Positions 3,155 to 30,279 of a stretch of 64,000 nucleotides of DNA are shown one piece after another. The translations under genes and the position numbers were made by a program. The notes beneath the pieces were generated by a model that made no database searches, had not been told where the DNA came from, and saw only the letters and a program-made list of their open reading frames with translations. The stretch's first letter is position 1; each line of letters opens with the position of its first letter. This stretch comes from Acinetobacter sp. SAAs474 (GTDB lineage Bacteria; Pseudomonadota; Gammaproteobacteria; Pseudomonadales; Moraxellaceae), in contig NZ_CP127915.1 in NCBI RefSeq assembly GCF_032823475.1, positions 1,860,001 to 1,924,000 on the forward strand, given 5' to 3'.

Positions 3155-3204
3155 ACTCCGGAGATGCCGCTGCATGTCATTACCCTTGAACCCGAAGAGT
3201 TCAA
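3155..3204. repeat. attL: displaced 3' end of ssrS
   Basis: Fifty bases identical to 27079-27128. They match only the last part of 6S RNA (minus strand), including the CCTTGAA/TTCAAGG region and the closing-stem bases. Sequence to the right of 3204 has no 6S similarity. This is the left attachment site of the island. Confidence 0.93.
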
Positions 3205-3339
3205 AGCTGGTTGCATGAATTAAGCAACATTAAGGTGTATTTGGAAACAAAAAAAATCCCATAACAAATTAATTTTCATACATATTTTTGTTTAAAGTCT
3301 ACCAAAAAACAAGTAGCAACTTTAAACAACATTCTTGCA

Positions 3340-4749: not shown

Positions 4750-4761
4750 ATGAGGTGGATG

Positions 4762-5295: not shown

Positions 5296-7766
5296 TTATC
5301 AAATTTTTACCGGTCGGCACTGGAGATCCGAAGCTGGCAGTTTCATATTTGATTGGTGAGCTAGATCATAACGGTGATAGGCGAGCTGATGTAGAGATTT
5401 TAGCTGGTGATCCTTTTACCTTTTCTGCGCTTGCAGAGAGTGTGTCTTTTAAATATTGCTATACATCTGTTGTAATTGCGTGGTCACCGAAAGATCTCGT
5501 GACCGATGAGCATATCAGTGAAGTAGTATCTGAATTTCAACAGCACATTGGGGCAGGGCTTGAGCCTGATCAGTATCACATGACGGTCGTCATGCATAGT
5601 GAGGAAGATGGTTCAAGACATTTACATATATTAATACCTCGCGTTGAACTGAGAACTGGAAAATCATTTAATGTTGCCCCACCTGGGCACAGACACTATT
5701 TTGATCCACTACGAGATTACTTTAACTATAAATACAGCTGGTCTAGACCTGACGACGTTAAAGGTTTGGATTCGAACGAGCTGAATCAGCATGTCCATTT
5801 ACACAGTGTAGAAGATATCAAAGCAAATTTAGATGGAAAAACAGACCAAAAGTGGACAAAGGCTGAGCGAGTTGAATTAGTGGATCAATTTATTCATCAA
5901 CAGATTACGTTGCAGAAAATTAACAATCGTCATGAATTAGTTGAGTGTTTAAAACAGTTAGGCAATATCACTCGACTAAGTGCGAACTATATTTCTCTTA
6001 AGCATGAAATTGCTACAGATCGACTCAAAGGAAAATTTTATGGCGCAGATTTTTCATTTTTAGACTATCAACTTAAGCAAAGAAGAGCTTTGCAAAATAA
6101 TATTGCAAGCGCACAAGAGCTTATGACGCATGAAGAGCGCTTCAAGAAGATGGACGAGAGCTTTAAAGAAATGCATCGTGTCAGAGCAAAACGTGCTGAA
6201 TACAACAAAAAATATTATCAGCCCAAAAAGTCAAAACATCGAACCATCGATCATGACTTAGTAAATGAAGATATTTATATAAATTCAATGATCAGAAAGT
6301 TGATTCCTTCACCTGAAATTAATCATGAACAGACTTCTCAGACTCATGATCTTCACAAGAGAGATGTCGAGCCAACCAAGCAAAGCCACAGCTTATTAGC
6401 ACAATTGGATGGAATGAGTGTGTCTGATGAAATCAATAGCATGTTTAAGCTAGGTGAAGAACTTGTTTCTGAGCCACCATCAACTTCTAGCCCAAACCTC
6501 TATGAAGTGGAACTGAAAGCTCCAAAAACAGATTTTGGGCCAAATAAAGCAGTTAAAGCGAATAACTACTCAATTGCAAAGACCCCGCAAATTTTTTGGG
6601 AAATTGACCAAATCCAACATTCTTTAAATTATCAAGCATCTAAATCAATGATAGGAGTTAAGTATGAGAGATACACCGTTGCAAGCACAGAAAAATCAAT
6701 TGTTAGCACAGCAGAACACTGTGATCAGCGAATTGAAGAACTTGGTGAGCGTACTCAAAGACGAAATCGATCAACACAAACAGGTGATTGCAGCACAACA
6801 GAGTTATATCAACTCACTCAAGCAGTCAGAGATGCAACAGAAGCAAGAACAAGAGCTCATGAGGAAAGAAAACTTGCTTTTGAGCAAGAAGTTGAAAGAT
6901 ATGAACTCGAAGTCAATCGAGCAAGACAAAATCATCAAGTTATATCAAGAGGAACTGCAAAAAGAGATTTCATTGAAAGAGCTCATCGAGTATTTAGAGA
7001 CACTAAAGACAGAATTAGAAACACATTTCAAGATATTATTAAAAGTCTCATATCTGAGGCCCCTGATTCAGGAGGAAATAGATGGCGTTTTAAGACCATA
7101 TCTGAAAGGGCTGAAGCAATTGGAGTCGATCGACTGGTCAACATTGCAAGACAGCGAACTGAGCGTAGGCAACGTACTGAAAACGTTCAACGATTTAAAC
7201 AAGAAATAGAGCTAATACAACAGCAGTCAGCTAAAAATAGGATACAGCATACAATCACAGATGCTTTAGTCAATGTGGGGAAAGCATTACCGGAACTGGA
7301 TTTAACTGAAGTTAAACGTCTTGCTAGTCGCGCAGAAGTCTTTTTACAAGATTTTAATTCATCTGATACTGTTAATGATGATCCAGATTTGTGGCTTAAT
7401 GGTTATGAATTTCATCTTGAGCGATGCGTAGAATCACTCAAGCACCAGCTCAATAAAAAGATCTATATAGGAAGTGATTTAGATGTGCTAAAACAGTTTG
7501 CAATGACCGTTGAAACGCATATAGAACAAATCGAATCAGAAACGTTATCTAAAACTTCACTAATCTTTTATGAAGATGCTCAGTTGAAAGTAGCTAAATT
7601 AGTTCAAGAATTTAGAGCTCATATTGTGCAGGGGAAAACAAATGTGAGTGTAGAGTCAGTAGAGCAAGCTCAAATGATGAGTCAGCTTGATAATGATTTT
7701 ATGAATACTCAAAAGGATCATATTGATAGTACGTATATTGAAAGAGACGATGGACCACATTTTTAG
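5292..7766 (+). CDS. mobA: MobA/MobL-like conjugative relaxase
   Basis: An 824-aa relaxase that would nick oriT and pilot the strand during transfer. The N-terminal 150 residues carry the relaxase core: a candidate catalytic Tyr19 and a metal-binding histidine cluster H102...H110-x-H112 (HSEEDGSRHLHILI), followed by HRHYFDPLRDYFNYK. Residues about 200-330 form a linker rich in basic residues. From about residue 455 the protein is coiled-coil-like and unusually rich in Arg, Glu and Gln. Part of that stretch is overprinted by a second gene in another frame (6664-7209), which may explain its odd composition. It is translationally coupled to mobC and followed by a strong terminator. No type IV secretion genes are near, so the element is mobilisable rather than self-transmissible. 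Confidence 0.87.
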   Translation: MIIKFLPVGTGDPKLAVSYLIGELDHNGDRRADVEILAGDPFTFSALAESVSFKYCYTSVVIAWSPKDLVTDEHISEVVSEFQQHIGAGLEPDQYHMTVVMHSEEDGSRHLHILIPRVELRTGKSFNVAPPGHRHYFDPLRDYFNYKYSWSRPDDVKGLDSNELNQHVHLHSVEDIKANLDGKTDQKWTKAERVELVDQFIHQQITLQKINNRHELVECLKQLGNITRLSANYISLKHEIATDRLKGKFYGADFSFLDYQLKQRRALQNNIASAQELMTHEERFKKMDESFKEMHRVRAKRAEYNKKYYQPKKSKHRTIDHDLVNEDIYINSMIRKLIPSPEINHEQTSQTHDLHKRDVEPTKQSHSLLAQLDGMSVSDEINSMFKLGEELVSEPPSTSSPNLYEVELKAPKTDFGPNKAVKANNYSIAKTPQIFWEIDQIQHSLNYQASKSMIGVKYERYTVASTEKSIVSTAEHCDQRIEELGERTQRRNRSTQTGDCSTTELYQLTQAVRDATEARTRAHEERKLAFEQEVERYELEVNRARQNHQVISRGTAKRDFIERAHRVFRDTKDRIRNTFQDIIKSLISEAPDSGGNRWRFKTISERAEAIGVDRLVNIARQRTERRQRTENVQRFKQEIELIQQQSAKNRIQHTITDALVNVGKALPELDLTEVKRLASRAEVFLQDFNSSDTVNDDPDLWLNGYEFHLERCVESLKHQLNKKIYIGSDLDVLKQFAMTVETHIEQIESETLSKTSLIFYEDAQLKVAKLVQEFRAHIVQGKTNVSVESVEQAQMMSQLDNDFMNTQKDHIDSTYIERDDGPHF
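6664..7209 (+). CDS. MobB/MobD-like coiled-coil protein nested in relaxase
   Basis: A 181-aa open frame wholly inside the relaxase gene in a different forward frame. It has an ATG and a very good ribosome site (AGGAG at 6653-6657, 6-nt spacer). The product reads like a real protein: long heptad-rich helices (about residues 10-120) with normal composition, then a more mixed C-terminus. The relaxase frame over the same bases is the strange one (Arg/Thr/Glu-rich). Nested or overlapping mobB and mobD genes inside mobA are known from ColE1-type mobilisation regions. The role is probably a relaxosome or membrane-contact accessory. Expression is inferred, not shown. Confidence 0.62.
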   Translation: MRDTPLQAQKNQLLAQQNTVISELKNLVSVLKDEIDQHKQVIAAQQSYINSLKQSEMQQKQEQELMRKENLLLSKKLKDMNSKSIEQDKIIKLYQEELQKEISLKELIEYLETLKTELETHFKILLKVSYLRPLIQEEIDGVLRPYLKGLKQLESIDWSTLQDSELSVGNVLKTFNDLNKK

Positions 7767-11240: not shown

Positions 11241-14200
11241 ATGGGAAATGCAGATTTAGTTAGAGCAAGTAGAGATGGAGATCAGTTTCATTATTTATGG
11301 GCTGCAAGAAAAGCTCTTCTACTTCTAAATCCCCTATCTGGATTACATACCTTGACTATTGAAGGTCCAAGTAAAACTGAATTTAATGAAGAGGTAGAAG
11401 AAGGCGAAGAAATCGTAGATGTGGGGGAATACTATACTAGTAATCATTTTTCTAATGCCTCTAAAATCATATACACGCAACTTAAACACTCCACATTACA
11501 TGCACAAACCCCATTTGAACCTAGTAAATTACGCAATACCATCGAAGGTTTTTCGAAAAGATATCGTAGCCTGATAGATAAAGAATCTAAGGATGAAGTA
11601 TTAAAAAAAGTAGAATTTCACTTCGTTTCAAATAGACCGATCAACGATGAGTTCTATAAGTCAATTATTGAGCTCAAAGAGTCAGGACAAGTTACTAAAA
11701 CTCAGAACCTTCAAAAATTAATTGACTACACTGAACTTAGAGGCCAATCTTTAAAAGAATTTATTAAGCTAGTAAAATTCCCTTCTCAAGAGCCTAACTA
11801 TATAGCTCAACGGGAGATTCTTGCTCAAGACGTTGCTTACTATCTACCAGGCGACGATGTTAATGCTCCAAATGAGTTAAAGGAATTAATAACTCGTAAA
11901 GCACTTAGCGAAAATCAAAATACACCTGAAATTACACAATACGATGTACTCCGTGCACTTAAAACTAACCCAGATGATCTGTTTCCAGTAAAGAACTTAA
12001 TAAAACAGTTAAAAACTATCGTAGATAGGCCTATCGTAAGAACATTAATAGATACTATTAATGAATCACATAGTCAAAAATTTATTATTCAGGCTGAAGG
12101 TGGCGTAGGTAAATCAATCTTAAGTACGCAAATTAGCAACTATATCTTTTCTGGATCGTTATCAATTGTCTATGACTGCTTTGGTAACGGTGACTACAGA
12201 CAATCCTCATCAGCGAGACATACACATAAAATAGCGTTAGTTCAAATTGCAAACGAACTAGCTGGATTAGGCTTATGTCATCCACTAATACCAACAACCG
12301 GTGCTGGGCCTAGCGAGTATATAAAGGCATTTTTGTTTAGATTAAAGCAGGTTTCTGAAAGATTCTCTAATGAGAATAAGCAACTATTCATAGTTATTGA
12401 TGCTGCTGATAACTCACAAATGGCAGCAGATGAATTTAATTATGGTCGTTCTTTCATAACTGATCTTTTACAAGAAGATATACCCGTTAATATTAAAATA
12501 ATTGCTTTAGCAAGACCTTATAGAGTTGAGCTTTTAATGCCGAAGCAAGATATCAAAATTATTACTTTAGAAGGCTTTAGTGAAAATGAGACAAAACAAC
12601 ATCTATTAAACTACTATTCTGATGTTTCGACACAAGATGCGATAGAATTTCATCGACTTACTAGTGGGAACCCACGAGTCCAGAGCATTGCTTTAGAACA
12701 AAAATTAACTTTACATGAAGTTCTTTCATTTTTCGGTGGAACGCCCAAAAGCGTAGAAGATACTATTAAAGATTTGTTAGACAAGGCAATTTCCACTTTC
12801 AAAGAACAAAACTACTCCGAATCAGAAGAAATTGATTTACTGCTTACTTCAATTGCTATTTTACGTCCATTAATTCCACTGCAAATTTTATCTGATTTAA
12901 CTAATATCAGGGCTAATCAAATAAGAAGTATTATTTCTGATATAGGTGGCCATCCAATTCGTCTTAGTGACAATAATATTCAATTTGTTGATGAGCCAAC
13001 AGAGTCTTGGTTCCGTGAAATTTATAAGCCAAAAGATACTAGTTTGTTGAATGATTTTATTCAGAAGCTTAAACCTCTCGCTGTAAATTCTGTATATGCC
13101 GCTTCTGTACTACCCCAAATCTTGATGGATGCAGGTAATTTTGAGGAGTTAGTTGAGTTATCTTTAAATTCTGAAATGTTACCAACGAATTCCACATTAG
13201 AAAAAAGAAAGGTTGAATTACAACGCCTACAATTTGCAATTAAAGCTGGCCTAAAACTTGGTAAATATACAGACGTTGCTAAGTTGTCACTAAAAGCTGG
13301 TGGAGAGGTTGCTGCAGAGACTAGGCAACATCAATTACTCGAAGAAAATATAGACATAGTTAGTACAACCTTTAGTGATCATCAAATTTTAGAGCTAATT
13401 TCTGAAAAAGTATTCAAAGGTGGTTCATGGCATGGCTCAAAATACATTACTGAGGCTAAACTTCTCTCATATCGAGAAGAATTCCATGGAGAATCACGTA
13501 GCAAGCTTCGTATTGCAAATCAATGGTTAACTAGTTGGTTTAAACTTCCCAAAAAACAACGACACAATCAAAATGTAGAATATAAAGAACTCAGTGATTA
13601 CTTTATTACTCTAATAACTTTAGAAGGCGTTGACTATGCGATTAATTGGCTTCGTAGATGGCGTCCAAAAAGTGTAAGTTATGATGTAGCCAAGTTGGCG
13701 ACAAAAGAATTGATTAGACATAGCAAAATTGATCTTATACAGACGATATTAGATAAATCAGGTAATAACATATTTTTAACTTTAGGTATTGTTGAGATAC
13801 TTAAATTAAATCACTGTGTTATCCATTCTGAGAATTTTTCACGAGTTATAAAATTACTTAGTTACGCCAAAGTAAAACTTGATATTGGTCTAAGCCCAAT
13901 TCTTTGCTTTTTAGAAGTGGGTTTTAAACAACAACTTTGTTCATCTATCGAAGCATATCAAATTTTATCAAAATATTTGCCTACTGAAATACCATATGAG
14001 ATTAGAGATCGTTTTGGGCACTCAGATAGAGTAAGTTATATGAAAGCTTATGCTTTACATAAAGCATGGGATAATAAGACATTAGAACTAATTGATTTAG
14101 TACCTGACAAATTAAAAGATGAATTTTTAAAGGACTCGGCTTATAGCTCATCAGAAGAAATTATTACACTAAAACGAGATGTAGCAGCAGTTTTACCATG

Positions 14201-17200
14201 GTGCAAATTGTATGTTCGGTCAATCATAGAGAAGATTTGTACTAAGGAATTCGATCAACTAATTGAACAAGCGAAATCAGACTCCCAGAAAGCTCAAGGA
14301 TACTCTCACCGGGATTATGGTTATCATCTAGAAAATGAAATTGCAAGAATTTGGTTTGATATTTTAATTTTAAATAATCATCTTAACCAAGAAACTTATT
14401 CAAAGATAGAAAGTCATTTCAAGGAAAAAATTTATCTTAATACACGTAATTATTTCACGCTTATTTTGGCTTTGCAGAAACAATGTGAATTAGAAGATTA
14501 TTGTTATGGAAATACAGATAAGAACTTAAAAGATCTTGAGAATAGTGATGATCATGCAGAAACATTGGTGAGTGACTATATGTCTATTGCTCAATCAATT
14601 TTCCCTCTAGATCAAGAAGAAGCTTCTGCAATATTAGATATAGCAATTAAAGTAAGTAGTAAGCTAGGCGAAGAAAATCTGCAACGATGGAATGCATTAC
14701 TTTGCTATGGCGTAAGAGCTGGACAGGAGCAAAATAATAGAAAACCACAGCTATGCTACCGATTTAGTCAATGTGCTGAATTGACATATAAATATGTGCA
14801 TAGAGATAAACATTTTCCATGGGATTACACAGTTGATGCAATTTATGATTTGGATCCTAATTCAGCTATTGCTATTGCTAGCCGTTGGCGTGATCGTAGA
14901 TTTGGAGATGAAGATAGAATATTAGGCAATTTAGTGGATAAGTTACTTAAAGAACCACTTTTATCACCATTGATACCTTTGGCTTTCAGAGCGATGGGAG
15001 CTACATATGACTTAGATAATCTATTAAGCTCTATTAAATCATTAGCTTTAAGTGATGAACTAAAAAGAAAGGTTCTACAAAGCTTCTATCTTTATATTGT
15101 TGTACCTAACCCATCCGAAAAGCATATCAGTCGCCTTAAGGATTTGGTCGAGGCATTTCATATAACAGATCAAACTGTCCAAGATTTTTTCTTATACCTT
15201 AGTAATTCAGAAGTTTATGTTCAAGTAGAAGAAGCAGCTCACTCTTCAACCTACGACCAAGAAGAGTTTGATTGGGATGTGTTTTTTGAAAATTATACTG
15301 ATTCAAATCAAAGTATAGATTTTGATTCAGCTTTTAATGATTTTCAGAAATTGGAAAATAAGTATTGGATTAGAAAAGCCCTCTATTTACAGCTTTTAAA
15401 AAGAATAAGTGCTTCACAAGCGATTCCACTGATTAATTGGTGGTTCGATGATCCTAGAAATGGAATGTATGAATTAGGTGATCTTTTAAAAGCTATACCA
15501 CATCACTTTAAACGGAGAATAGCATTTTTAAATGTTCTAGATTCAAGAATAAAACAATTTTTGAAAACACATCATGCTGATTTTTATATAGATACTTATG
15601 GGAGTAATCTGAAATTACATATTTTAAGTGAGTTAACAGGGAAACCTAAGACTGATTATATTCAATCTCTCTTAGAGGGCATAAGTGAAAGCTCCATTAC
15701 ATTAGAGAGTGAACGCTTATTTAGGATGGCTCATTTACTAACGCCTATGATTGCACCAAATCAATCTTATGAGATTCTAGAGTATGGTCTAGATTTGTTG
15801 GAAAATGATTTAGGAACAGATATCGCTGATGGGCAATGGCATGAGGAATTAGCGCCGCCAGAGAACATAATAGAATCTATCTCAGGTTACATTTGGTCTA
15901 GCCTAGCATCACCTTTCAATACTGTTAAATGGCAAGCCGCTCATGCCGTTAAGTTACTTTGTGATTTAGAGCAAAGAGAATTGTTATCTAATTTAATTAA
16001 CTTTATGGGCGATAAAAATTACCTGAGTTTTTATGATCACAAATTTGAATTTTATCAATATTCAGCTACTCAATGGTTACTTAATGCTTTACTAAAAGTG
16101 TCTTATAACCCGAATAACTTTTTGGCTGAGTATGTTGAAACGTTTAAGCAGTTAGCAGATCCAAATCGACCACATTTGATGATTCGACTACTCACTTCAA
16201 AAATTCTTCTAAATCTATTTAATTCAAAGCTTATAACGCTAAATGAAGATGAGATTCAAGCCTATCAGGGAGTTGGTAAATCTAGTTTTAGTAAAGTACA
16301 ACGAGACGCTATTGATCTTTCAAAATATTCAGAAATGAATCAAGAGGAAATTGATTCATTTGGTATTGATTTTGGTCTTTACTGGCTTGATCCATTAGGT
16401 TCAATGTTTGGTTTACACCCTACACACATACACTTTGAAACAACTCAAACATTAAAGAATGAAATTGGATTTACGGATAAGTGTAAAGCTAATGATGCAC
16501 GTCAAAAAATGGAAATTTATGACTGGAAGCAAACAAGTCATAGTCATGGATCTAGTCCAAAAGTTGAAGATTTAGATTTTTATCTGTCCTACCATGCAAT
16601 GATGATCACCGCAGATAAACTACTCCAAACAAAACCATTACTTGAAAGTGAATATTCATGGAGAGAGTTTGATGATTGGATTAAACGACATGATTTATCC
16701 TCTCTAGAACCTTATTGGCTAAGTGACTTTAGAGATCCATGTCCTCGAATAACGACAGAATGGCCTAAAGACGATAGAGAAAATTCTATAAATTGGACTT
16801 ACAGTTGTTCTTCTGTTGATTATGAGGATGCCATAAAGTTAGATGATCAGGAGCTCTATTTATGGGGCATCTGGTCTGAAGTAAATAGTTATAGTCAGGC
16901 AAAACGTATTCGTATCCGTTCAAGTTTAGTTAGTCCCGAAACATCTAATGCGCTATTGAGAAGCTTACAAAGTACGGAATCAAGTCAGGACTATCACTTA
17001 CCTAGTTCAAATGATGAAAGACTTGAATTTCAAGATGATAAATTTAAGTTAAAAGGTTGGATTGCAGAACAGGAACTTGATTTATCGAATTTTGATGATG
17101 ATTTATGGGGGGCATCCTTGGAATATGATATGACCAAACCATCAAATGAGATTATCTCCTTAATGAATCTGCATTCTGATGCCTTAGGGAAAAATTGGTT

Positions 17201-17480
17201 TTATGAAAATGAAAGAGTACTACAACTTATCATTTGGGGGAAATATCAAAATGAGGATTATGAATACTCAAATGGTTACAAACTGAAAGTGAACAAAAAA
17301 TTTATTCTCGATCTACTTCAAAAAATTAATATGGATATGATCATTTCTGTAGATATCAATCGTAGATATAAATATGGCAGTTACCAATCAAAAGAAGATT
17401 CAAAAGGATTGAATAAGTATTTACCAAGTAGTAAAAGAGTTTATTTAATGAAAAAGAATGGAGATATGTATGTCTACTGA
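11241..17480 (+). CDS. avs3a: Avs3a-like STAND NTPase with N-terminal Cap4-type nuclease
   Basis: A 2,079-aa protein in three parts. Residues 1-130 resemble the Cap4/DUF4297 dsDNA nuclease: DQFHYLWAARKALLLL, E41, D60 (EIVDVGEYY) and Q80-x-K82 (IYTQLKHS), a PD-(D/E)xK-like core. Residues about 260-560 form a STAND ATPase with Walker A GGVGKS (287-292) and Walker B FIVIDAAD (383-390). The remaining 1,500 residues are mostly helical and probably form the repeat sensor. In Avs (antiviral STAND) proteins the sensor binds a conserved phage protein, terminase in the Avs3 case, the ATPase oligomerises, and the nuclease degrades DNA. Size, domain order and a small downstream partner fit AVAST type 3. 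The exact subtype needs a profile search; Avs2 or Avs4 relatives are alternatives. Confidence 0.78.
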   Translation: MGNADLVRASRDGDQFHYLWAARKALLLLNPLSGLHTLTIEGPSKTEFNEEVEEGEEIVDVGEYYTSNHFSNASKIIYTQLKHSTLHAQTPFEPSKLRNTIEGFSKRYRSLIDKESKDEVLKKVEFHFVSNRPINDEFYKSIIELKESGQVTKTQNLQKLIDYTELRGQSLKEFIKLVKFPSQEPNYIAQREILAQDVAYYLPGDDVNAPNELKELITRKALSENQNTPEITQYDVLRALKTNPDDLFPVKNLIKQLKTIVDRPIVRTLIDTINESHSQKFIIQAEGGVGKSILSTQISNYIFSGSLSIVYDCFGNGDYRQSSSARHTHKIALVQIANELAGLGLCHPLIPTTGAGPSEYIKAFLFRLKQVSERFSNENKQLFIVIDAADNSQMAADEFNYGRSFITDLLQEDIPVNIKIIALARPYRVELLMPKQDIKIITLEGFSENETKQHLLNYYSDVSTQDAIEFHRLTSGNPRVQSIALEQKLTLHEVLSFFGGTPKSVEDTIKDLLDKAISTFKEQNYSESEEIDLLLTSIAILRPLIPLQILSDLTNIRANQIRSIISDIGGHPIRLSDNNIQFVDEPTESWFREIYKPKDTSLLNDFIQKLKPLAVNSVYAASVLPQILMDAGNFEELVELSLNSEMLPTNSTLEKRKVELQRLQFAIKAGLKLGKYTDVAKLSLKAGGEVAAETRQHQLLEENIDIVSTTFSDHQILELISEKVFKGGSWHGSKYITEAKLLSYREEFHGESRSKLRIANQWLTSWFKLPKKQRHNQNVEYKELSDYFITLITLEGVDYAINWLRRWRPKSVSYDVAKLATKELIRHSKIDLIQTILDKSGNNIFLTLGIVEILKLNHCVIHSENFSRVIKLLSYAKVKLDIGLSPILCFLEVGFKQQLCSSIEAYQILSKYLPTEIPYEIRDRFGHSDRVSYMKAYALHKAWDNKTLELIDLVPDKLKDEFLKDSAYSSSEEIITLKRDVAAVLPWCKLYVRSIIEKICTKEFDQLIEQAKSDSQKAQGYSHRDYGYHLENEIARIWFDILILNNHLNQETYSKIESHFKEKIYLNTRNYFTLILALQKQCELEDYCYGNTDKNLKDLENSDDHAETLVSDYMSIAQSIFPLDQEEASAILDIAIKVSSKLGEENLQRWNALLCYGVRAGQEQNNRKPQLCYRFSQCAELTYKYVHRDKHFPWDYTVDAIYDLDPNSAIAIASRWRDRRFGDEDRILGNLVDKLLKEPLLSPLIPLAFRAMGATYDLDNLLSSIKSLALSDELKRKVLQSFYLYIVVPNPSEKHISRLKDLVEAFHITDQTVQDFFLYLSNSEVYVQVEEAAHSSTYDQEEFDWDVFFENYTDSNQSIDFDSAFNDFQKLENKYWIRKALYLQLLKRISASQAIPLINWWFDDPRNGMYELGDLLKAIPHHFKRRIAFLNVLDSRIKQFLKTHHADFYIDTYGSNLKLHILSELTGKPKTDYIQSLLEGISESSITLESERLFRMAHLLTPMIAPNQSYEILEYGLDLLENDLGTDIADGQWHEELAPPENIIESISGYIWSSLASPFNTVKWQAAHAVKLLCDLEQRELLSNLINFMGDKNYLSFYDHKFEFYQYSATQWLLNALLKVSYNPNNFLAEYVETFKQLADPNRPHLMIRLLTSKILLNLFNSKLITLNEDEIQAYQGVGKSSFSKVQRDAIDLSKYSEMNQEEIDSFGIDFGLYWLDPLGSMFGLHPTHIHFETTQTLKNEIGFTDKCKANDARQKMEIYDWKQTSHSHGSSPKVEDLDFYLSYHAMMITADKLLQTKPLLESEYSWREFDDWIKRHDLSSLEPYWLSDFRDPCPRITTEWPKDDRENSINWTYSCSSVDYEDAIKLDDQELYLWGIWSEVNSYSQAKRIRIRSSLVSPETSNALLRSLQSTESSQDYHLPSSNDERLEFQDDKFKLKGWIAEQELDLSNFDDDLWGASLEYDMTKPSNEIISLMNLHSDALGKNWFYENERVLQLIIWGKYQNEDYEYSNGYKLKVNKKFILDLLQKINMDMIISVDINRRYKYGSYQSKEDSKGLNKYLPSSKRVYLMKKNGDMYVY

Positions 17481-18117
17481 AAGTCTTATCGAACTAGGAA
17501 AAAGACTAGTAGAAGAATTTAAGTTAGAGGATAAAACGGATACATTATCTCAATGGATGCTTCACTATTTAGCAGAACTATTTGAACGGTATGATCTATC
17601 CACTTCTCCTGAAGAAAAGCGTATAGCATCTGTCGATATCAGAGATACTATTTTTAAGCTCTGGGAATTTCGCTATCAGCAGTCCCGTTCCCATAGTAGT
17701 TTCAAAAATACAGAATTTTTAATTTCAACATTACAAAAATTAAATTTAGATAATGATGATGCTTTCTACTCAGGTTTAAGATATTTCAGAAATGTAGAAA
17801 GTACTATAGATCAGAGTAGTCCTGCATATTGGTACAGTTATGCACTCAAGCTCGATAAGGCATCACGTTTCTTGATAAGAAATTGTATCCTCAAAGGATA
17901 TGCTATAACAGAAGCTGATAACCAAGAAATTGCTGATCTCATCAAAGAGTTTGAGGAGTTAGATTCTTACGAAAATTTATTAGGTAGATTTTATAGCGAC
18001 CAGTCCGATGAAGATGAAGAAGTTAGAAATATTAAAAATAATATTTCTAACATAGAGGAGTTGATGGATGCTTTAGCAGAGTTAAAGACTAATTATGAGG
18101 AAAAATTAACTTCATAA
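17470..18117 (+). CDS. avs3b: Avs3b-like accessory protein
   Basis: A 215-aa acidic protein with no recognisable catalytic motif, probably all-helical. It overlaps the end of the STAND nuclease gene by 11 bp, so the two are translationally coupled. The start at 17470 (MSTESLIELG) is chosen over 17458 because GGAG at 17460-17463 sits 6 nt before it. AVAST type 3 systems are described as a large nuclease/ATPase plus a small second protein of this size, whose role is unclear; the assignment here is mainly from context. The C-terminal 40 residues are highly charged and look like a coiled coil. Confidence 0.58.
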   Translation: MSTESLIELGKRLVEEFKLEDKTDTLSQWMLHYLAELFERYDLSTSPEEKRIASVDIRDTIFKLWEFRYQQSRSHSSFKNTEFLISTLQKLNLDNDDAFYSGLRYFRNVESTIDQSSPAYWYSYALKLDKASRFLIRNCILKGYAITEADNQEIADLIKEFEELDSYENLLGRFYSDQSDEDEEVRNIKNNISNIEELMDALAELKTNYEEKLTS

Positions 18118-18183: not shown

Positions 18184-18379
18184 ATAGGAATATGCAAAAG
18201 GTATATAAAGTGAAGCTTATTATTAGTTTAAATATAAAAAATGTCTATAAATCTTGTAATACCAGTGGGAGTATACTATAAATATTTTTTCAGATTCTTC
18301 TGAGCATAAAATTAAATTTACTTGAATAAAAGTTTATTAATTAATGCTTTACAAGTAAAATTGTATTTTGGGGTCTTGT

Positions 18380-19717
18380 GTGAATAAAATAATAGCTATT
18401 GCGATAGATGAATATAGTAATGAGCCTGTAAAAAACTTAAGTAATTGTCTAAATGATATAAATAGCATAATTGGCATTCTTACTTCTGAATACGTATATG
18501 ATTCTGATAACTCTGAAATTACACTTTTTGCTGAACCTCAGCAAACTACTCTTTCTTTCCTCTATAAAAGCTTAAATCAAGAATTTTTTAACGCATTAGA
18601 ATCTGACTCAATTTTGATAATTCATGCTGGTCACGGTGAATACAATGATCATTTGAAAACAGGATATTGGTGCTGTTCAGATAGCCAATTTGATGATCCT
18701 ACAACATGGTTTGATATCAATATTTTACTTTCTTTTTTTGCTAACTCTAAAGCAAAACATATTGCTTTGATTTCTGATAGCTGCTTTTCTGGTTCAATTT
18801 TCAATCGTAATAGAGGCGGCGGCGAAAACGCATTAACTGGTAAAAAGTCTATACAAGCTCTCACTTCGGGTGGATTAGAAAAAGTTAGCGATGGAAGTGC
18901 TAATGACAACAGCCCTTTTAATAAAGCAATTCAATTAACATTAAAAACAAATGAGTTTGAATTTCTGAGTTTTAACCAATTCTGTGAGTCAACAATTAAA
19001 TTTTTTTCACCTAATCGAATTCAAACCCCTCAATTTGGTTCACTAAATATACAAGGTGATGAAGGTGGAACATATGCATTCAAGAAAAGATTAAAAATAT
19101 ACAATGATGATTTATCATATGAAAATTCAACTCTAGCTCTTGAAATAGATAATCGAATAAATATAACTAGTAATATCAACGTCCCATTTTTTTTAGATAA
19201 CAAAAACTTTGACTCAAAATTTATCAATACATTTATTCAAAAATTAGGTTATGAAATTATTAATGATATTCGTATTTATGCTTCTGAAGATATTGATTAC
19301 TTAGTAGAGAGAAGTTCTGATTATCCATTTGAAGTTGATTTAATGTATTCAATAGATAGACTAGACCAAGACTATTTAAGTATATCTTTTTCGCGAAATG
19401 AGTACTTTGGGACTATGCACCCAAATCACTATATATATTCCATTAACTTTAGGCTGAAGCCTTTTGTTCTTCAAGTTGGTTTATATGATGTTTTCAAAAT
19501 AAATAATACTGATCAATTAAAATATTTAATTAATAAATTTTCAGAAGATGAATGTAAGGAGATAATATCAAGGCACGTAGATGAGCAAAACATATATGAA
19601 TTAGATTTCTCCTTTAATGAACAAACATTATTTCTATATTTTATTAATCACTTACCTCATGCATGCAAAGCATGTGGAGTTGTTGAGATTCCATTAAGTG
19701 AAGTAAAATTTAAATAA
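18380..19717 (+). CDS. Caspase-family (C14-like) cysteine protease
   Basis: A 445-aa protein. Residues 1-200 form a caspase/metacaspase-like domain: the first strand NKIIAIAIDEY, catalytic His85 in IIHAGHGEYND and catalytic Cys135 in ISDSCFSGS. Residues about 230-445 form a domain I do not recognise; it ends with a CKACG pair of cysteines. The GTG at 18380 is chosen because GGGGT precedes it at the right distance; an upstream TTG at 18368 has none. It is separated from the Avs3-like operon by 260 bp, so it is probably its own transcription unit. Prokaryotic caspases act as suicide effectors in several anti-phage systems. No sensor gene is adjacent on the same strand, so the C-terminal domain may itself sense. 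Confidence 0.82.
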   Translation: MNKIIAIAIDEYSNEPVKNLSNCLNDINSIIGILTSEYVYDSDNSEITLFAEPQQTTLSFLYKSLNQEFFNALESDSILIIHAGHGEYNDHLKTGYWCCSDSQFDDPTTWFDINILLSFFANSKAKHIALISDSCFSGSIFNRNRGGGENALTGKKSIQALTSGGLEKVSDGSANDNSPFNKAIQLTLKTNEFEFLSFNQFCESTIKFFSPNRIQTPQFGSLNIQGDEGGTYAFKKRLKIYNDDLSYENSTLALEIDNRINITSNINVPFFLDNKNFDSKFINTFIQKLGYEIINDIRIYASEDIDYLVERSSDYPFEVDLMYSIDRLDQDYLSISFSRNEYFGTMHPNHYIYSINFRLKPFVLQVGLYDVFKINNTDQLKYLINKFSEDECKEIISRHVDEQNIYELDFSFNEQTLFLYFINHLPHACKACGVVEIPLSEVKFK

Positions 19718-20486: not shown

Positions 20487-21062
20487 TTAACTGAATATGG
20501 TAGAAGGTATAGTCTCTGTAAGATTTTTGATTTTAATCTGTCTCAATGATTCTATTTCTTCAGTAGTAAGCTCGTGAGACAAGAAATTTTCTATCCAAAT
20601 ATTTTCATCGAATGTGCCATTATGAAAAGCAGTATATAAATCAAAAAAAGTATCACCAATCAAATCAAGTGTCGGCTCACCTTCATTATTGAAAAAATAT
20701 ACACCTGTTTCAAGATATAAGGGGTGTTCTGTAAACCATTTTTGATATCGATTTTTAAAAAATTCTTTACCCCCTAATTCATCGTAATGCTCAGGATTAT
20801 TATGAAGTAAATCGTAATTTGTTACGTACTCAAGAGCATCAATCCACCATTTCCGGAAATTATTATCCGCAGGATGGCGTTTTGGAATTTTATCTAAAAA
20901 TGAAAGAAAATCCTCCGCTATGAGAGATAATTCAAGCTCAAGTATTTCATTAATGTCTTTAACAGCAGTATGCAGAAGAATGGCATTCTGACCATCTATA
21001 AAAATACAATCATTCTGAGCAGCATTTTTCATAATTTTTTGCACATTTGCTGTAGTTTTCAA
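20487..21062 (-). CDS. Hypothetical protein, 191 aa
   Basis: Not recognised. The protein is acidic, without signal peptide or membrane segment. Residues about 60-75 (IPKRHPADNNFRKWWIDALE) and 105-150 (aromatic-rich, with YFFNNEGEPTLDLIG) look like a compact globular domain. It is a single-gene unit with its own terminator, between an IS256 remnant and an IS3 remnant in the island. That placement, and its isolation, fit cargo such as an immunity, antitoxin or defence protein, but nothing in the sequence decides this. Confidence 0.6.
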   Translation of the reverse strand: MKTTANVQKIMKNAAQNDCIFIDGQNAILLHTAVKDINEILELELSLIAEDFLSFLDKIPKRHPADNNFRKWWIDALEYVTNYDLLHNNPEHYDELGGKEFFKNRYQKWFTEHPLYLETGVYFFNNEGEPTLDLIGDTFFDLYTAFHNGTFDENIWIENFLSHELTTEEIESLRQIKIKNLTETIPSTIFS

Positions 21063-22121: not shown

Positions 22122-22820
22122 TCAATCTAAATTTAGTTTAAGAGATTCAACATTATTTTGAGATTTCATTAGAAATAATAAAAAATTATCATGATCTACT
22201 TTAGAAAAAATAAATTTGAAGTCATAGGAGATCGTAATTTTAACTGTAGGCATATCGTTAAAGAATAAATCGATTTTGAATATTTTATATGATTTTGTCG
22301 TTAAATTTTCACTAAAAAAATCAAATAAATTATTATCAAAGCTTTGTGTGTAAAGAATTTTCTTTTCAAAAATATTGTTGGGATGAATAATTTCACGAGC
22401 ATCAATTTTGGAAATATGGTTAATCGATTCGAGATTATTTTTTATAAAATTATCTAAATTCAAAGTCTTTTTATTTAAGGAAAATTGAAAATTAAAAATT
22501 TTAGATAGTAGATTGCGTAATTTTAATATGCTTCTAGGTTGATCAAAGACTATGAAATTATTAGAATTGAATTTATAAATTCTAAAGATAATATTTTCAA
22601 CTTTCATTCTCTCTAATTTATTTAAATTATTATTTAGGTCTAAGTATTCCTCAACAAAAATATTTTTGTAAGTAAAAAAACACTCTATATAGGAAGTGCG
22701 TTTTTTTACAACTTTAATACTCTCAGACTCATTTCTTTGGGTCTCACGTTCTAAACGTGATGGTATATCATCAAAGTCACAAGGGAAGGATGCATCATAA
22801 AAGCTTATTTTATTCATCAT
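22122..22820 (-). CDS. Hypothetical protein C of unrecognised three-gene operon
   Basis: A 232-aa protein, rich in Asn, Lys, Phe and Ile; not recognised. There is no signal peptide or membrane segment. The body alternates predicted strands and helices (for example VENIIFRIYKFNSNNFIVFD and VKITISYDFKFIFSKVDHDN) and could be a small alpha/beta domain. The start overlaps the stop of gene B by 11 nt, so it is translated with it. It is the last gene of the operon and very AT-rich, like most late-acquired cargo. A role as specificity or regulatory subunit is possible but unproven. Confidence 0.65.
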   Translation of the reverse strand: MMNKISFYDASFPCDFDDIPSRLERETQRNESESIKVVKKRTSYIECFFTYKNIFVEEYLDLNNNLNKLERMKVENIIFRIYKFNSNNFIVFDQPRSILKLRNLLSKIFNFQFSLNKKTLNLDNFIKNNLESINHISKIDAREIIHPNNIFEKKILYTQSFDNNLFDFFSENLTTKSYKIFKIDLFFNDMPTVKITISYDFKFIFSKVDHDNFLLFLMKSQNNVESLKLNLD

Positions 22821-23916
22821 CTTTTACCAATTGGTTATCATATTCGGTTACGATCTGATCATAGGTCAGGTACAGAAACTTGTCGAAAAATTTTAAAAAC
22901 TCCGCTTTTTCAGTATCTAAGATCTTGTGTCTTTCAGTCGTATAATTTTCACCTTTTATATTTTTTTTGTATGTTCCTTTTATGTCATAAAAGAAGCGAG
23001 TACATTCTTTAGGGTTATTAAAACCAGCATTGATTTCAATCAATCTGTTATTTTTGGATTCTTCTACAGTCCATGTTATTTCTGTTATGTAATGGCCTAA
23101 AGCTCTTAATCCTTGATATAGTTTATTTGTGTGTAGTGATGAACCAGATAGATGAGCGGTTTTAAGGAAGCCAGAGTCTTTGCTAGGTTCTAAATCATTT
23201 GGATCCAAGTCCATTACTGAGTTTTTAGAGTTATGATGCACTTTTATTCGTTTTACATCATGCAAAGAGTACTTTTTATCATCCATTACAATTAGATTGA
23301 GAAAAAAACTTGTTCTATATTCAGATAATAGAATATTTGATAAAGTAATTTCTTGTTTCTTAAAGGTTTGGTGTTTTGCACCTGCCACCTTTTCTATGAT
23401 TTTATTTACAATAGGGTCAAGAACTTCATCAGAATCATATCTAAAGACGATGTCATTACCATTTTGTTCTACCGAAATAGATTGATCAGTTAGTGGTTTT
23501 TGAATCAATCTAGTATTACTTCTTTCGAGTGTCGAAGTTGTTAAATTTACTTCGTATTTATTAACACCTACACCTTTATGGCTCATTTGATTGTCAGAAA
23601 ATTGTGGAGCTATGTCTTTGATTACTTCTTTGAAGTCTGCCAACGAAGCACCTGAAATCAGTAGCGAAGAAGTTTTCTTACTTTTTTCATTATAGTTTAA
23701 ATTATCCAAAATGGTTTTTAAGCTATGCCAATCTTTGAACTGTGTGGAAATATATTGACAAATACTTTCTCGACTTTCATTCGTTGATAAAAAAATCCCT
23801 ATATTTTTACAAAGGGCTAAAAGTTTTTCATCAGGTAGTTTCTGTTTTTGGCTATATAGTGCATCAAATATTTCACGATCAGAAACGAGTAAATTATCAA
23901 AACCAAATTTTTTCAT
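22810..23916 (-). CDS. Hypothetical protein B of unrecognised three-gene operon
   Basis: A 368-aa cytoplasmic-type protein; not recognised. An N-terminal helical part (residues 1-100, FDNLLVSDREIFDALYSQKQ, and so on) is followed by a strand-rich region (about 130-310, with FFLNLIVMDDKKYSLHDVKR and EITWTVEESKNNRLIEINAG) and a charged C-terminal helix ending in LVKDDE. No ATPase, nuclease or methylase motif is evident. It joins the upstream gene by TAATG (1-nt overlap) and the downstream one by an 11-nt overlap. Such tight coupling suggests that the three proteins form one complex in fixed amounts. Confidence 0.68.
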   Translation of the reverse strand: MKKFGFDNLLVSDREIFDALYSQKQKLPDEKLLALCKNIGIFLSTNESRESICQYISTQFKDWHSLKTILDNLNYNEKSKKTSSLLISGASLADFKEVIKDIAPQFSDNQMSHKGVGVNKYEVNLTTSTLERSNTRLIQKPLTDQSISVEQNGNDIVFRYDSDEVLDPIVNKIIEKVAGAKHQTFKKQEITLSNILLSEYRTSFFLNLIVMDDKKYSLHDVKRIKVHHNSKNSVMDLDPNDLEPSKDSGFLKTAHLSGSSLHTNKLYQGLRALGHYITEITWTVEESKNNRLIEINAGFNNPKECTRFFYDIKGTYKKNIKGENYTTERHKILDTEKAEFLKFFDKFLYLTYDQIVTEYDNQLVKDDE

Positions 23917-24869
23917 TATCTAATACCCATTCCAATTTCTAACTCACTAAATTCGGTTGTAAATTTTTTAATTTTCTGGTGTTCAATACTATCTAGGAGC
24001 TTAATTAGATTTGGTTCTTTAATATTTAGTATGTTCTTACATTTACTGATTGCAGTTGTAAAATTTGTAGGGGCAAATTGATCTTGTTCTAGTTGAAAAA
24101 TTTTTATGGAATTTCCTTCTTCTAGAATTTGATGATGTCTAAGGTAGTCTATGAGATAGATGAACTCATCAACTTCTTCACCTGAGGGTCTATAAAATAT
24201 TACTTTACAACTTTTTTCTTTATCTTCAATTATGAAAAATGGGGATTTAAGTAGATCTATGGTAGCTGATTTGCTGGAACCAATGGTGGCTTGATCTTTG
24301 CGTTGAGGGTAAAAGAAAGTATAGTTTTCTGTTAGTACTTTTTTTTCAAGAAGTTTTCCAATATGAGATGCTACATTGTTTAACCAAAAAATATCATTGG
24401 GATCTAATACATATATTTTACTTTGCTTCGGTAGATTAAAAATATTAGAAGGAACTTTTTGAAGTTTACTTGTAAATAACTTGGTATACTGACCATCATG
24501 GTTATAAATAAACAGCATTCCATGAATTCTATAATCTGTTTCTTGACCTGAGTAAAGTTTTTGCCACTCATCACTAATTTCTGCACATTGAACTTGCATA
24601 GATAGACTGGTTAGAGTTGATTCAAGTTCTAATTTTTCAAGTGTACTGACACCAAAGCTTTTCAAGTCTGTATGGATGAAGTTTAAAGTGTCTGTGTATG
24701 GGTCATTGTAATGAAATACGACATCTGCAGGATGTGTTTTTTTATTATGCTCTAAGTCTTCGCATTTCCAATTTTGGTCTTCTGGTTTGGATTTTGACCA
24801 TCCAAAGTAACAAAATATGTCTTCAGACATTATTTTGGCCATCTCACCAATGTTTTGAGTCTCTGCCAT
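23916..24869 (-). CDS. Putative PD-(D/E)xK nuclease, gene A of three-gene operon
   Basis: A 317-aa protein, first gene of the operon. Residues about 15-75 look like a restriction-nuclease fold: a helix (MAKIMSEDIFCYFGW), an Asp in HPADVVFHYNDP (residue 49), then a strand ending in D-x-K (NFIHTDLKSFG, D68-x-K70). This is the D...(D/E)xK pattern of Mrr- and DUF4297-like endonucleases. The rest is not recognised; the C-terminus is helical. The ATG at 24869 follows GGGG. A perfect palindrome at 24891-24905 may be the operator. The position between IS remnants and the integrase, where island cargo sits, and the coupling to two unknown genes suggest a multi-subunit anti-phage or plasmid-exclusion system. 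This is inference from motif and context only. Confidence 0.62.
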   Translation of the reverse strand: MAETQNIGEMAKIMSEDIFCYFGWSKSKPEDQNWKCEDLEHNKKTHPADVVFHYNDPYTDTLNFIHTDLKSFGVSTLEKLELESTLTSLSMQVQCAEISDEWQKLYSGQETDYRIHGMLFIYNHDGQYTKLFTSKLQKVPSNIFNLPKQSKIYVLDPNDIFWLNNVASHIGKLLEKKVLTENYTFFYPQRKDQATIGSSKSATIDLLKSPFFIIEDKEKSCKVIFYRPSGEEVDEFIYLIDYLRHHQILEEGNSIKIFQLEQDQFAPTNFTTAISKCKNILNIKEPNLIKLLDSIEHQKIKKFTTEFSELEIGMGIR

Positions 24870-25563: not shown

Positions 25564-26940
25564 CTATATACGCATTCTATTTGGTTTTTTAACCACATAC
25601 TTTCGAGCCAAAATCCTACTTTTAACTTCTTCCGAAAGAATATGATTTTCAATTTTATTCATAGCATCTCTCAAATCTCTAGCATCTATTTGAGTATAGT
25701 CAGCCGTTATATCTGAATCTTCTTGATAGGAGTGGTTAATCAAAGCTTTAACAGTATACATTCCAATTCCACAACGATTGGCAATAGAAGTAAAAGTACG
25801 TCTCAAATCATGAAATGTGAAGGGAATTCCTGTAGTTTCAGAAATCTTATTGCGAACATGTCTCCGATCTTTTACATGAGTTTGATTATTTGATGCTGGG
25901 AAAACATATTTACAGCCATTGGAATACTTTTTTCGCTGGTTGAATATATGAAGTAATATATTTCCTAAAGGTAAAAGTAAATCATTGCCATTTTTAGGAT
26001 TAATAATTTTTAAAGTTCCAAATTTTAGGTCAACATTAGCCCAAACGAGTTGCTCAATTTCGCTACGTCTCAATCCAGTGAGTACGAAAGTCAAAAGAAA
26101 ATCTTGGTTCAAATAACCATATTCATTAGCATATATTTGACCACGCCATGTGCTGTCAACAATCGCTTTTATCCAGTCGGTTTGTTGTTCACTATTAATA
26201 TAGGTTTTTCTTGGTTTTAGCTTATTAAATAGATCATTTCTATAAAGAATCGCAACTGGGCTAAATTCTTTAATAATTGGTTGATCATTACAAATCAATC
26301 TCTTGCGATGATAATTATAAACAGCTGAAAATAATTTAAGCGTAATATTTGCATGAGATTTATTGGTTTTTGAAATTTCAGCATGCTTATCTATGACCAT
26401 TTGCATCGTTACATCTGTAATTTTTAAATGATGCCAATCTTTTAAGTACAAGCTCATATCTCTGTCATACACAGCAACTGTATTTGGCTTTAGCTCTGTT
26501 CTAGCTTCTATGTAGTGTTTATAAGCATCTATCAAAGTTGGGATTTGCTGATAATTTAATCGCCCCTGGGAGGCTTTTTGGCGTAGTTGTTCTTTTTTAT
26601 CGTTTGGGTTTATTCCCTGGGACATTTCAAGGAGATATTCGGTTGCTTTCTGTCTAGCAGTTTCTGGTGTAAAAATACCATGATCTCCGATAGTGACACG
26701 GCAGGGAACACCATTTGGCATTTTCTTTTCAACAGTATATACAAGAGAGTGGCGAGTCGCTCTGATAGCAAATCCAATCAGTTTAAGATCACGAAAAAAA
26801 AGTTGTTTCCCACTTGGAATATCAAAACAGTATTGTTTGGAATCCTTAAGGGCTTCATCTGCATAAGGATCACTTAGTTGTTTAATGAGACCTTTAACAA
26901 ATGAAAGGGTAATGTGTGTTTTTTTATTGGACATTTTCAT
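25564..26940 (-). CDS. int: Tyrosine recombinase (island integrase)
   Basis: A 458-aa P4-type integrase. The N-terminal 110 residues look like the arm-DNA-binding domain found in island integrases (CRVTIGDHGIFTPETARQKA). The core-binding domain covers about 130-240. The catalytic domain shows Arg291 (LTGLRRSE), a Lys near 316, H377-x-x-R380 (FHDLRRTF), His403 (LINHS) and the nucleophile Tyr415 (ADYTQ), so the catalytic set is complete. It would recombine the 50-bp att repeats within ssrS. The start is at 26940 or, two codons on, at 26934. The gene points away from attR, whose edge is 138 bp upstream of its start. Confidence 0.95.
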   Translation of the reverse strand: MKMSNKKTHITLSFVKGLIKQLSDPYADEALKDSKQYCFDIPSGKQLFFRDLKLIGFAIRATRHSLVYTVEKKMPNGVPCRVTIGDHGIFTPETARQKATEYLLEMSQGINPNDKKEQLRQKASQGRLNYQQIPTLIDAYKHYIEARTELKPNTVAVYDRDMSLYLKDWHHLKITDVTMQMVIDKHAEISKTNKSHANITLKLFSAVYNYHRKRLICNDQPIIKEFSPVAILYRNDLFNKLKPRKTYINSEQQTDWIKAIVDSTWRGQIYANEYGYLNQDFLLTFVLTGLRRSEIEQLVWANVDLKFGTLKIINPKNGNDLLLPLGNILLHIFNQRKKYSNGCKYVFPASNNQTHVKDRRHVRNKISETTGIPFTFHDLRRTFTSIANRCGIGMYTVKALINHSYQEDSDITADYTQIDARDLRDAMNKIENHILSEEVKSRILARKYVVKKPNRMRI

Positions 26941-27074: not shown

Positions 27075-27260
27075 AAACACTCCGGAGATGCCGCTGCATG
27101 TCATTACCCTTGAACCCGAAGAGTTCAAGGCGGACGCGACGCATACTTGCTGGGTGTCCCACTCGGGGTGGGCATACGCTCTAAATATGCAGAACACAAT
27201 CCATAAGTTTAAGTATCGGCTCAGGGGAATTTGACCCGCTGGCGAACATCCCAGAGTTAG
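27075..27260 (-). ncRNA. ssrS: 6S RNA
   Basis: Read on the minus strand, the segment has the hallmarks of gammaproteobacterial 6S RNA: a 5' end CTCTGGGATGTTCGCCAGCG, then CCCCTGAGCCGATA, and near the 3' end CCTTGAAC...GGGTTCAAGGGT, GCGGCATCTCCGGAG. It sits downstream of zapA as in Escherichia coli. 6S RNA binds sigma70 RNA polymerase and lowers transcription in stationary phase. A TATACT -10 box lies at about 27265-27270. The last 50 bp are the island's right att site, so the island restores the closing stem while replacing the DNA just downstream. Confidence 0.92.
27079..27128. repeat. attR within the 3' part of ssrS
   Basis: Identical over 50 bp to 3155-3204. The match breaks at 27129 (G against A at 3205), inside the 6S gene body, and at 27078, just past its 3' end. 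This fixes the right boundary of the island. Confidence 0.93.
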
Positions 27261-28199: not shown

Positions 28200-28263
28200 A
28201 TCGTAGTCGCACAGTATTGCAAACAAAGGTAATATATAAGAAGTATAGAGATTGGATAGACGA

Positions 28264-28881
28264 ATGCAAGACGATATTTCAGGTTGGTTAGACTGGCAGC
28301 GTAATTTTTCACAAATTGAAGAGATTTCAAGTCCAAGTGAGTTACATGGCTTACTCACAGGTATTGTTTGTGTAACTGAAGCACCGAGTCGTGAACAATG
28401 GCAACAAATTTTAGCAACATTAGATATACAGTTGTCTAATGAGGATGCACTGTCTCTGTTAGAAGAGGAAAGTGAAGATGTATCACATGCTTTAGCGGAA
28501 GATGAATTAGATTATTTACCGATGCTTCCTGATGATGAACATTCTTTATCTGAACGCGTACAAGCACTAGCCGACTGGTGTGCTGGTGTCGTGTTAGGCT
28601 TTGGTTTAGCTTCGGGTCATTTACGACAGGATGAACAGGAATTGATCGAACATTTACAGGATGTGGCATCAGTTGAGTTTGATGATTCGGATGATGATGA
28701 AGAAGGCGAAGAAAGTTATCAGGAGTTATACGAGTTTGTACGTTTAATTCCTGTCAGTTTAGCGATGGGGCGTAAAAAAGTGGCTATAGAAGAAACACCA
28801 TTATTGCAGGGTAGTCGCGTTAAAACAGCAGACAGCACGAGCCAAGTGGTGGAAATGTTTACACCACATCGCCCAAGCTAA
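28264..28881 (+). CDS. ygfB: UPF0149 family protein YgfB
   Basis: A 205-aa acidic protein with the UPF0149/YecA-like pattern (SELHGLLTGIVC near residue 29, LADWCAGVVLGFGLA near 107, YQELYEFVRLIPVSL near 160). It has no known catalytic activity; in Pseudomonas aeruginosa YgfB modulates beta-lactamase expression. The ATG at 28264 is used, not the TTG at 28252. It is the first gene of the ygfB-pepP-ubiH-ubiI block and is divergent from the zapA genes. Confidence 0.9.
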   Translation: MQDDISGWLDWQRNFSQIEEISSPSELHGLLTGIVCVTEAPSREQWQQILATLDIQLSNEDALSLLEEESEDVSHALAEDELDYLPMLPDDEHSLSERVQALADWCAGVVLGFGLASGHLRQDEQELIEHLQDVASVEFDDSDDDEEGEESYQELYEFVRLIPVSLAMGRKKVAIEETPLLQGSRVKTADSTSQVVEMFTPHRPS

Positions 28882-28941
28882 GACAACATGACCATGTTGC
28901 GGTTCACTTTTGTTCACTTAAAATCAAAGAAGTAATATCTC

Positions 28942-30279
28942 ATGAAGCAATTGACTCAAGCTCATTTTCAACAACGTCGTGATCGTTTAGCGGCAGAAAT
29001 GGGGCCACGCAGTATTGCGATTATTGCGACTAGTCCTGCAGTGATGCGTAATCGTGATGCCGATTATAAGTATAGAGCCGACAGTAGTTTCTTTTATTTA
29101 ACGGGATTTCCTGAACCTGAAGCCGTTGCTGTCATTGAAACTTTTGATCGCGAAGAAGACGGATATTGTTATAGCTTGTTTTGTCGTGAACGTGATCGTG
29201 ACATGGAAATCTGGAATGGTTATCGAGCAGGTCTAGAGGGTGCGATAGAAAACTATCAAGCTGACGAGGCCTGTGCGATTGATATGCTGGATGAAGAAAT
29301 TATTGAAAAACTATTTGATAAAGATCGAATATTTTATCGAATTGGTCATCAAGAAGAATTTGATGCTCGTGTAATTCAATGGCTAAAGCAAGCGGAAATA
29401 CAACAACGTAAAGCCAATCATTGTCCAAAAACAATAATGCAATTGGATGAAATTATTGATGAAATGCGATTACATAAAGCGGATGAAGAAATTGCGATGA
29501 TGCAAATTGCTTCAGATATTAGTGCTGAAGCACATATGCGTGCCATGCAAATGGTTCGTCCGGGTATGATGGAATATGCTCTAGAGGCTGAGTTAAATTA
29601 CGTATTTGGTAAAAATGGTTGTGTGCCTGCCTATAACAGCATTGTTGGCGGAGGTGCAAATGGCTGTATTTTGCATTATGTGGAAAATGATCAGGTGCTA
29701 AAGGATGGTGATCTGGTTTTAATTGATGCTGCTTGTGAATATCAATGTTATGCCTCTGATATTACACGTACTTTTCCAGTTAATGGTCGATTTAGTTTAG
29801 AACAAAAACAATTATATTCTCTTGTTCTTCAAGCACAAATTGCTGCGATTGCTGCCGTGCGTATTGGTCATTCTTATCAAGAACCGCACCGTGTTGCAGT
29901 CAGAATTTTGGTGCAGGGACTATTGGATTTAGGTTTAATGACGGGTGATCTGGAAGAGATTATTGCCACAGAAGCTTATCGTCAGTTCTATATGCACGGT
30001 ACTGGGCATTGGCTGGGTATGGATGTTCATGATGTTGGCACTTATCAGCAACATGGCGAGTGGCGAGATTATCAACCAGGGATGGTCGTCACCGTTGAGC
30101 CTGGGTTGTATATTGCACCAGACGATGAAAGTGTCGAGGAAAAATGGCGCGGTATTGGTATTCGTATTGAAGATGATGTGTTGGTGACTGAAGCAGGACC
30201 TTATGTATTAACTGCTGCTGTTACCAAAGATATTGAAGAAATTGAAGCATTTATGGCACTGTCACAGGTATCATCTTAA
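28942..30279 (+). CDS. pepP: Xaa-Pro aminopeptidase P
   Basis: A 445-aa M24 metallopeptidase that removes N-terminal residues preceding proline. The N-terminal AMP_N domain has DYKYRADSSFFYLTGF; the C-terminal pita-bread domain shows the dimetal ligands: Asp in LIDAACEY, Asp in ASDITRTF, His in GTGHWLGMDVHD, Glu in VTVEPGLY and Glu in IRIEDDVL. The set is complete, and the length is normal for bacterial PepP (about 440). It lies 60 bp after ygfB and upstream of ubiH, as in E. coli. Confidence 0.95.
   Translation: MKQLTQAHFQQRRDRLAAEMGPRSIAIIATSPAVMRNRDADYKYRADSSFFYLTGFPEPEAVAVIETFDREEDGYCYSLFCRERDRDMEIWNGYRAGLEGAIENYQADEACAIDMLDEEIIEKLFDKDRIFYRIGHQEEFDARVIQWLKQAEIQQRKANHCPKTIMQLDEIIDEMRLHKADEEIAMMQIASDISAEAHMRAMQMVRPGMMEYALEAELNYVFGKNGCVPAYNSIVGGGANGCILHYVENDQVLKDGDLVLIDAACEYQCYASDITRTFPVNGRFSLEQKQLYSLVLQAQIAAIAAVRIGHSYQEPHRVAVRILVQGLLDLGLMTGDLEEIIATEAYRQFYMHGTGHWLGMDVHDVGTYQQHGEWRDYQPGMVVTVEPGLYIAPDDESVEEKWRGIGIRIEDDVLVTEAGPYVLTAAVTKDIEEIEAFMALSQVSS

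Follow-up and report, generated by a model that had tools for sequence, protein, structure and literature searches.

We find that three overlapping genes of Acinetobacter sp. SAAs474 almost certainly form a divergent member of the 3HP (Rst_3HP) system. The genes, here called A, B and C, lie in a stretch of 64,000 nucleotides (nt) of the genome (assembly GCF_032823475.1, contig NZ_CP127915.1, positions 1,860,001 to 1,924,000), which we refer to as the window and in which all positions below are counted. A sequence-only reading of the window had singled out the trio as unrecognised and as the best candidate for a new system. This cannot be upheld. All three proteins belong to 3HP families, and a new, undescribed system is therefore ruled out. 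As 3HP has already been described, the novelty is confined to a divergent Acinetobacter member, well preserved and otherwise routine. The same reading had taken the three genes to be coupled, and the open reading frames (ORFs) are indeed present with an overlap of 1 nt between A and B and of 11 nt between B and C.

The assignment rests on several comparisons. The PADLOC models identify A as Hp1 (E 1.2e-54, residues 2-315) and B as Hp2 (E 2.6e-18, residues 11-327). C has diverged too far for recognition by the Hp3 model of PADLOC, which detects 9 of the 11 sequences in our alignment A4. On its own C has no match in PADLOC, PHROG or NCBIfam. C is found, however, by a profile of the Hp3 family made from 55 Hp3-like proteins without the window protein and four Acinetobacter or near rows. 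With this profile C scores 44.7 bits (E 5.7e-13), whereas the best of 1000 shuffles reaches 10.2 bits. Thus all three proteins match a described system, but C does so through the family profile and not through PADLOC. In a P2-like phage of Klebsiella the trio, which is flanked by small genes and lies between those for the portal protein and the replication endonuclease, matches Hp1, Hp2 and Hp3 over their full length (787, 820 and 521 bits), and in a Vibrio phage record the same three genes are labelled Rst_3HP__Hp1, Hp2 and Hp3. The window trio shares with 3HP the gene order, the strand, the sizes and the overlaps in addition to the homology of all three proteins. It differs from the Klebsiella copy in sequence, as A, B and C are only 37%, 21% and 15-16% identical, and its carrier is not a P2 prophage but an integrative mobilisable element inserted in the 6S RNA gene.

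By the names used in the tools, we take 3HP to be a published trio which protects against phage P1. The word 3HP occurs zero times in the main text of the article concerned (PMC9122126). Rousset et al. 2022 cloned this three-gene system from a P2 hotspot and observed that it protects Escherichia coli from P1; it is described there as a three-gene system without a clear predicted domain, and the protection is reported for the published trio and not for the copy in the window (PMC9122126). In the PMC literature searched, none of the listed papers mentioning 3HP deals with its mechanism as judged by title, and none ties 3HP to RdgC in its title or the start of its abstract.

The operon is genuine and its arrangement is not due to chance. 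A search of genome contigs with A alone gave 126 encoding stretches, and 80 loci were kept. B is present in 78 and C in 77 of these loci; two loci (L043, L054) stop soon after A, and the third exception (L087) has a B of 311 amino acids (aa) and no C was found in it. The set of complete loci comprises 87 of 92 loci, with close relatives not thinned. It leaves out these three incomplete loci, the own copy with a cut-off C (L004) and a locus with a broken A (L012). Gene order and strand agree in all 87 complete loci, which confirms the conserved gene order as a check called for by the sequence-only reading. The distance is at most 60 nt between A and B in 85 and between B and C in 84 of the 87. 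In the complete loci together with the window the distance matrices of the three proteins are strongly correlated (r 0.945 for A-B, 0.878 for A-C and 0.915 for B-C; permutation maximum 0.107). A, B and C are inherited as a unit. Scans for promoters and terminators remained near chance (24 found against 19.9, standard deviation 5.7, and 1 against 1.5). In the Klebsiella plasmid locus L012 (2313-5311) the profile finds Hp1 only as an 89-aa piece with intact frame, and Hp2 and Hp3 are whole.

The system occurs in many phyla. Among 5426 E. coli genomes, 18 contain DNA close to the Klebsiella phage trio, and in 17 of these the match covers 80% or more of the query; relatives of A occur in 8 phage and 21 plasmid records. 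Counting the genome of the window itself, A was found in 6 of 175 Acinetobacter genomes and in 3 of 398 genomes of a phylum sample. All 7 other A-bearing genomes of the two samples hold the whole trio. Distant nuclease homologues with other partners were not found in the 398 phylum genomes; since all three matches were strong, this sample did not extend to the boundary with GAPS4. In an Aliarcobacter plasmid the trio (L003, 1628-4415) adjoins a gene pair for an HNH endonuclease and an AAA-ATPase, possibly another defence system.

Protein A is a predicted PD-(D/E)xK nuclease. The sequence-only reading had suspected such an enzyme from D49 and D68-x-K70, and both the modelled fold and the conservation of these residues bear this out. 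In the computed structure (predicted local distance difference test score, pLDDT, 87.4; predicted template modelling score, pTM, 0.86) the alpha-beta-beta-beta-alpha-beta core of this fold is present, followed by a second alpha/beta domain (residues 156-304), and the structural alignments include the restriction enzymes FokI and PaqCI. None of the catalytic residues D49, D68 and K70 varies in the 63 homologues aligned, and all three are invariant in 120 of 120 database homologues among the matches listed. A would be expected to cleave DNA. A further matches PHROG 7059 (E 1.8e-84). The family PF26115, named after the GAPS4 nuclease, is a precomputed label on a protein 97% identical to A and on all 120 listed homologues, one of which is named 'GAPS4 PD-(D/E)XK nuclease'; the Pfam scan run here did not report it. 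GAPS4 is a two-gene system, whereas the nuclease in the window is accompanied by Hp2 and Hp3. In scans against Pfam and NCBIfam all matches of A, B and C fell short of the cut-offs. Sequence searches of the PDB with A and B alone returned nothing useful, and none of the three family profiles had a match there up to E 10. The residues C36, H41, H46, C95 and H124 of A are as invariant as the catalytic ones (120 of 120 listed) and could possibly form a structural metal site.

For B and C the sequence-only reading had recognised no motif. B can now be assigned a predicted fold. Its model consists of a helical domain at the N-terminus (residues 6-73) and an RdgC/CENP-N/L-like region (residues 79-357). 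To the latter, 217 residues of E. coli RdgC can be aligned. It is a predicted RdgC fold, the fold group of RdgC, lambda RexA, Iml3-Chl4 and CENP-L-CENP-N. Foldseek searches with the B model returned matches to CENP-N and to phage RdgC. B differs from this group by its additional helical domain and by its linkage to a nuclease gene. It differs from RdgC also in sequence, as neither B nor C has a match to the RdgC family PF04381 at E<=1. In our opinion the predicted RdgC-like fold of Hp2 is the point which deserves follow-up; Hp3 has less support.

It is nevertheless plausible, judging from profile comparisons, that C is a second RdgC-like subunit. Against a profile of 26 RdgC sequences C scores 23.7, a value which is reached by 0 of 60 column shuffles (maximum 17.6) and by 0 of 40 block shuffles (maximum 22.4), and the alignment pairs N-terminus with N-terminus. 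Protein A served as negative control against RdgC, and its score is attained by 3 of 60 and 4 of 40 decoys. For 60 members of the C family, PF04381 is absent from the 25 listed of 27 families. One C homologue has been named 'RdgC-like exonuclease' by its depositor.

We suggest that 3HP is a DNA-structure-guided nuclease, in which Hp1 is held on the DNA by a clamp of Hp2 and Hp3. This proposal could equally well prove right or wrong; among the readings considered here it is the most likely one, with the abortive release of a nuclease next. Hp1 would be a metal-dependent DNA nuclease of the PD-(D/E)xK type and Hp2 a DNA binding protein with the RdgC/CENP-N/L fold and its extra helical domain. 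Hp2 would most likely pair with the smaller Hp3 to form a hetero-ring or clamp on DNA, by analogy to RdgC, which acts as homodimer, and Iml3-Chl4, a heterodimer. The clamp could recognise a DNA structure or nucleoprotein state which is common in phage replication, such as ends, recombination or restart intermediates, and would keep Hp1 at the recognised DNA, where it then cuts. Since Hp1 would be directed by the clamp, no methyltransferase would be needed. With a nuclease, a partner of clamp fold and, probably, a second clamp subunit in C, the tight coupling of the genes would be explained although no methyltransferase accompanies them. We infer in this way an A-B-C complex, the clamping of DNA, the trigger and the cleavage.

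A number of results weigh against this proposal. Foldseek searches with A gave no match at E<=1e-3, and the top rows are unrelated proteins. B reaches low TM-scores only, with values (relative to the query) of 0.21-0.24 for CENP-N and 0.32-0.44 for the four best viral models. The profile similarity of B and RdgC is not above that of decoys (10 of 60 and 11 of 40 reach the score), and homology of the two by profile was dropped since decoys score as high. For C and RdgC the hhalign probability is only 2.9%. The C-B score lies above 40 column shuffles but fails against stronger decoys (8 of 40 block shuffles reach it) and the reversed alignment even scores higher, so that we do not claim B-C homology by profile. 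Finally, the published passage states protection against P1 only and names no trigger (PMC9122126).

The trio could also act by abortive infection, which we consider possible though doubtful. Hp1 would be held off by Hp2 and/or Hp3 until a phage protein or DNA signal frees it; host and phage DNA would both be destroyed, and B and C would be inhibitor and sensor instead of a guiding clamp. Overlapping genes and co-inheritance suit an effector which is kept in ratio with its controllers, and PARIS, a system of the same P2/P4 hotspots, is reported to work by abortive infection (PMC9122126). An inhibitor, however, has no need of the DNA-clamp fold predicted for B. It appears improbable that B and C, in an RdgC-like role, serve the recombination or maintenance of their carrier elements with the nuclease as helper and phage protection as a side effect. 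RdgC is a recombination protein which is also encoded by phages, and the trio is indeed carried by prophages, plasmids and an integrative element; but the cloned P2-hotspot trio identified with 3HP protects E. coli from P1 (PMC9122126), and the element of the window copy carries an Avs3-like system as well. Still less probable is restriction without modification, where Hp1 alone or with B or C reads a short sequence which the host avoids or masks. The fold of A and the restriction enzymes among its structural alignments would fit, yet the unit is conserved without a methyltransferase gene, and a nuclease needing a host with protected sequences would hardly suit a trio which occurs across many phyla and travels with phages and plasmids.

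The trio adjoins the integrase of an integrative mobilisable element of about 24 kb (3155-27131) which is inserted in the 6S RNA gene (see the table below). The description as island cargo which sits next to an integrase and shares its element with an Avs3-like system was thus correct: the trio lies between the direct repeats, and both Avs3 proteins are matched over their full length by PADLOC. The Avs3-like pair stays below the NCBIfam cut-offs and is context, not part of the trio. A caspase had been noted in the element as well; the gene is present, but its match is weak and partial. The same gene, just after Avs3b, has a sub-threshold PdaC match at residues 266-353. The element also holds IS3-type and IS110 transposases. 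Between transposase remnants and the trio there is an ORF of 191 aa on the minus strand (20487-21062) which has no counterpart in PADLOC or NCBIfam at E<=1 and for which the Pfam match is sub-threshold. Past the right end, the DNA of 28252-30279 is matched in all 60 genus genomes compared, but that of the left flank (1057-2945) in 10 of 60, and we therefore place the left border by the repeat. Of four relatives, three (L158-L160) show the right flank and the left copy of the repeat at one and the same place, and the fourth (L161) has a match to the right flank alone.

Features of the integrative element and its 3HP trio (window positions)
Feature	Position	Strand	Remarks
Direct repeat, left copy (attachment site)	3155-3207		53 bp, 52/53 identical to right copy
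MobC-like and relaxase genes	4750-7766	plus	PF05713 E 2.7e-6; PF03432 E 1.1e-6
Avs3a	11241-17480	plus	PADLOC 2010.8 bits, full length
Avs3b	17458-18117	plus	PADLOC E 4e-29, full length
Weakly caspase-like gene	18368-19717		449 aa; PADLOC 'caspase' E 5.4e-6, residues 11-162 only
Gene C	22122-22820	minus	ORF of 232 aa
Gene B	22810-23916	minus	ORF of 368 aa
Gene A	23916-24869	minus	ORF of 317 aa
Tyrosine-type integrase	25564-26940	minus	Pfam PF00589 E 1.5e-15
6S RNA gene (ssrS), integration target	27075-27260	minus	Rfam RF00013, 111.5 bits
Direct repeat, right copy	27079-27131		inside 3' part of 6S RNA gene

With a nuclease and an RdgC/CENP-N-like subunit, 3HP is given a mechanism which can be tested by point mutants and DNA-binding assays. 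3HP would be the second phage-exclusion system in the RdgC fold group, after lambda RexA. We tentatively go one step further and propose, as a doubtful extension of the guided nuclease, that Hp2 and Hp3 might form a bacterial heterodimer of RdgC folds organised like the kinetochore pair CENP-N-CENP-L, with the helical domain at the N-terminus of the larger subunit and a smaller partner beside it. By clamping phage DNA this pair would license Hp1 as a ring-guided nuclease. If this were true, the subunits by which kinetochores grip DNA and a phage defence system would share their architecture and possibly their ancestry.
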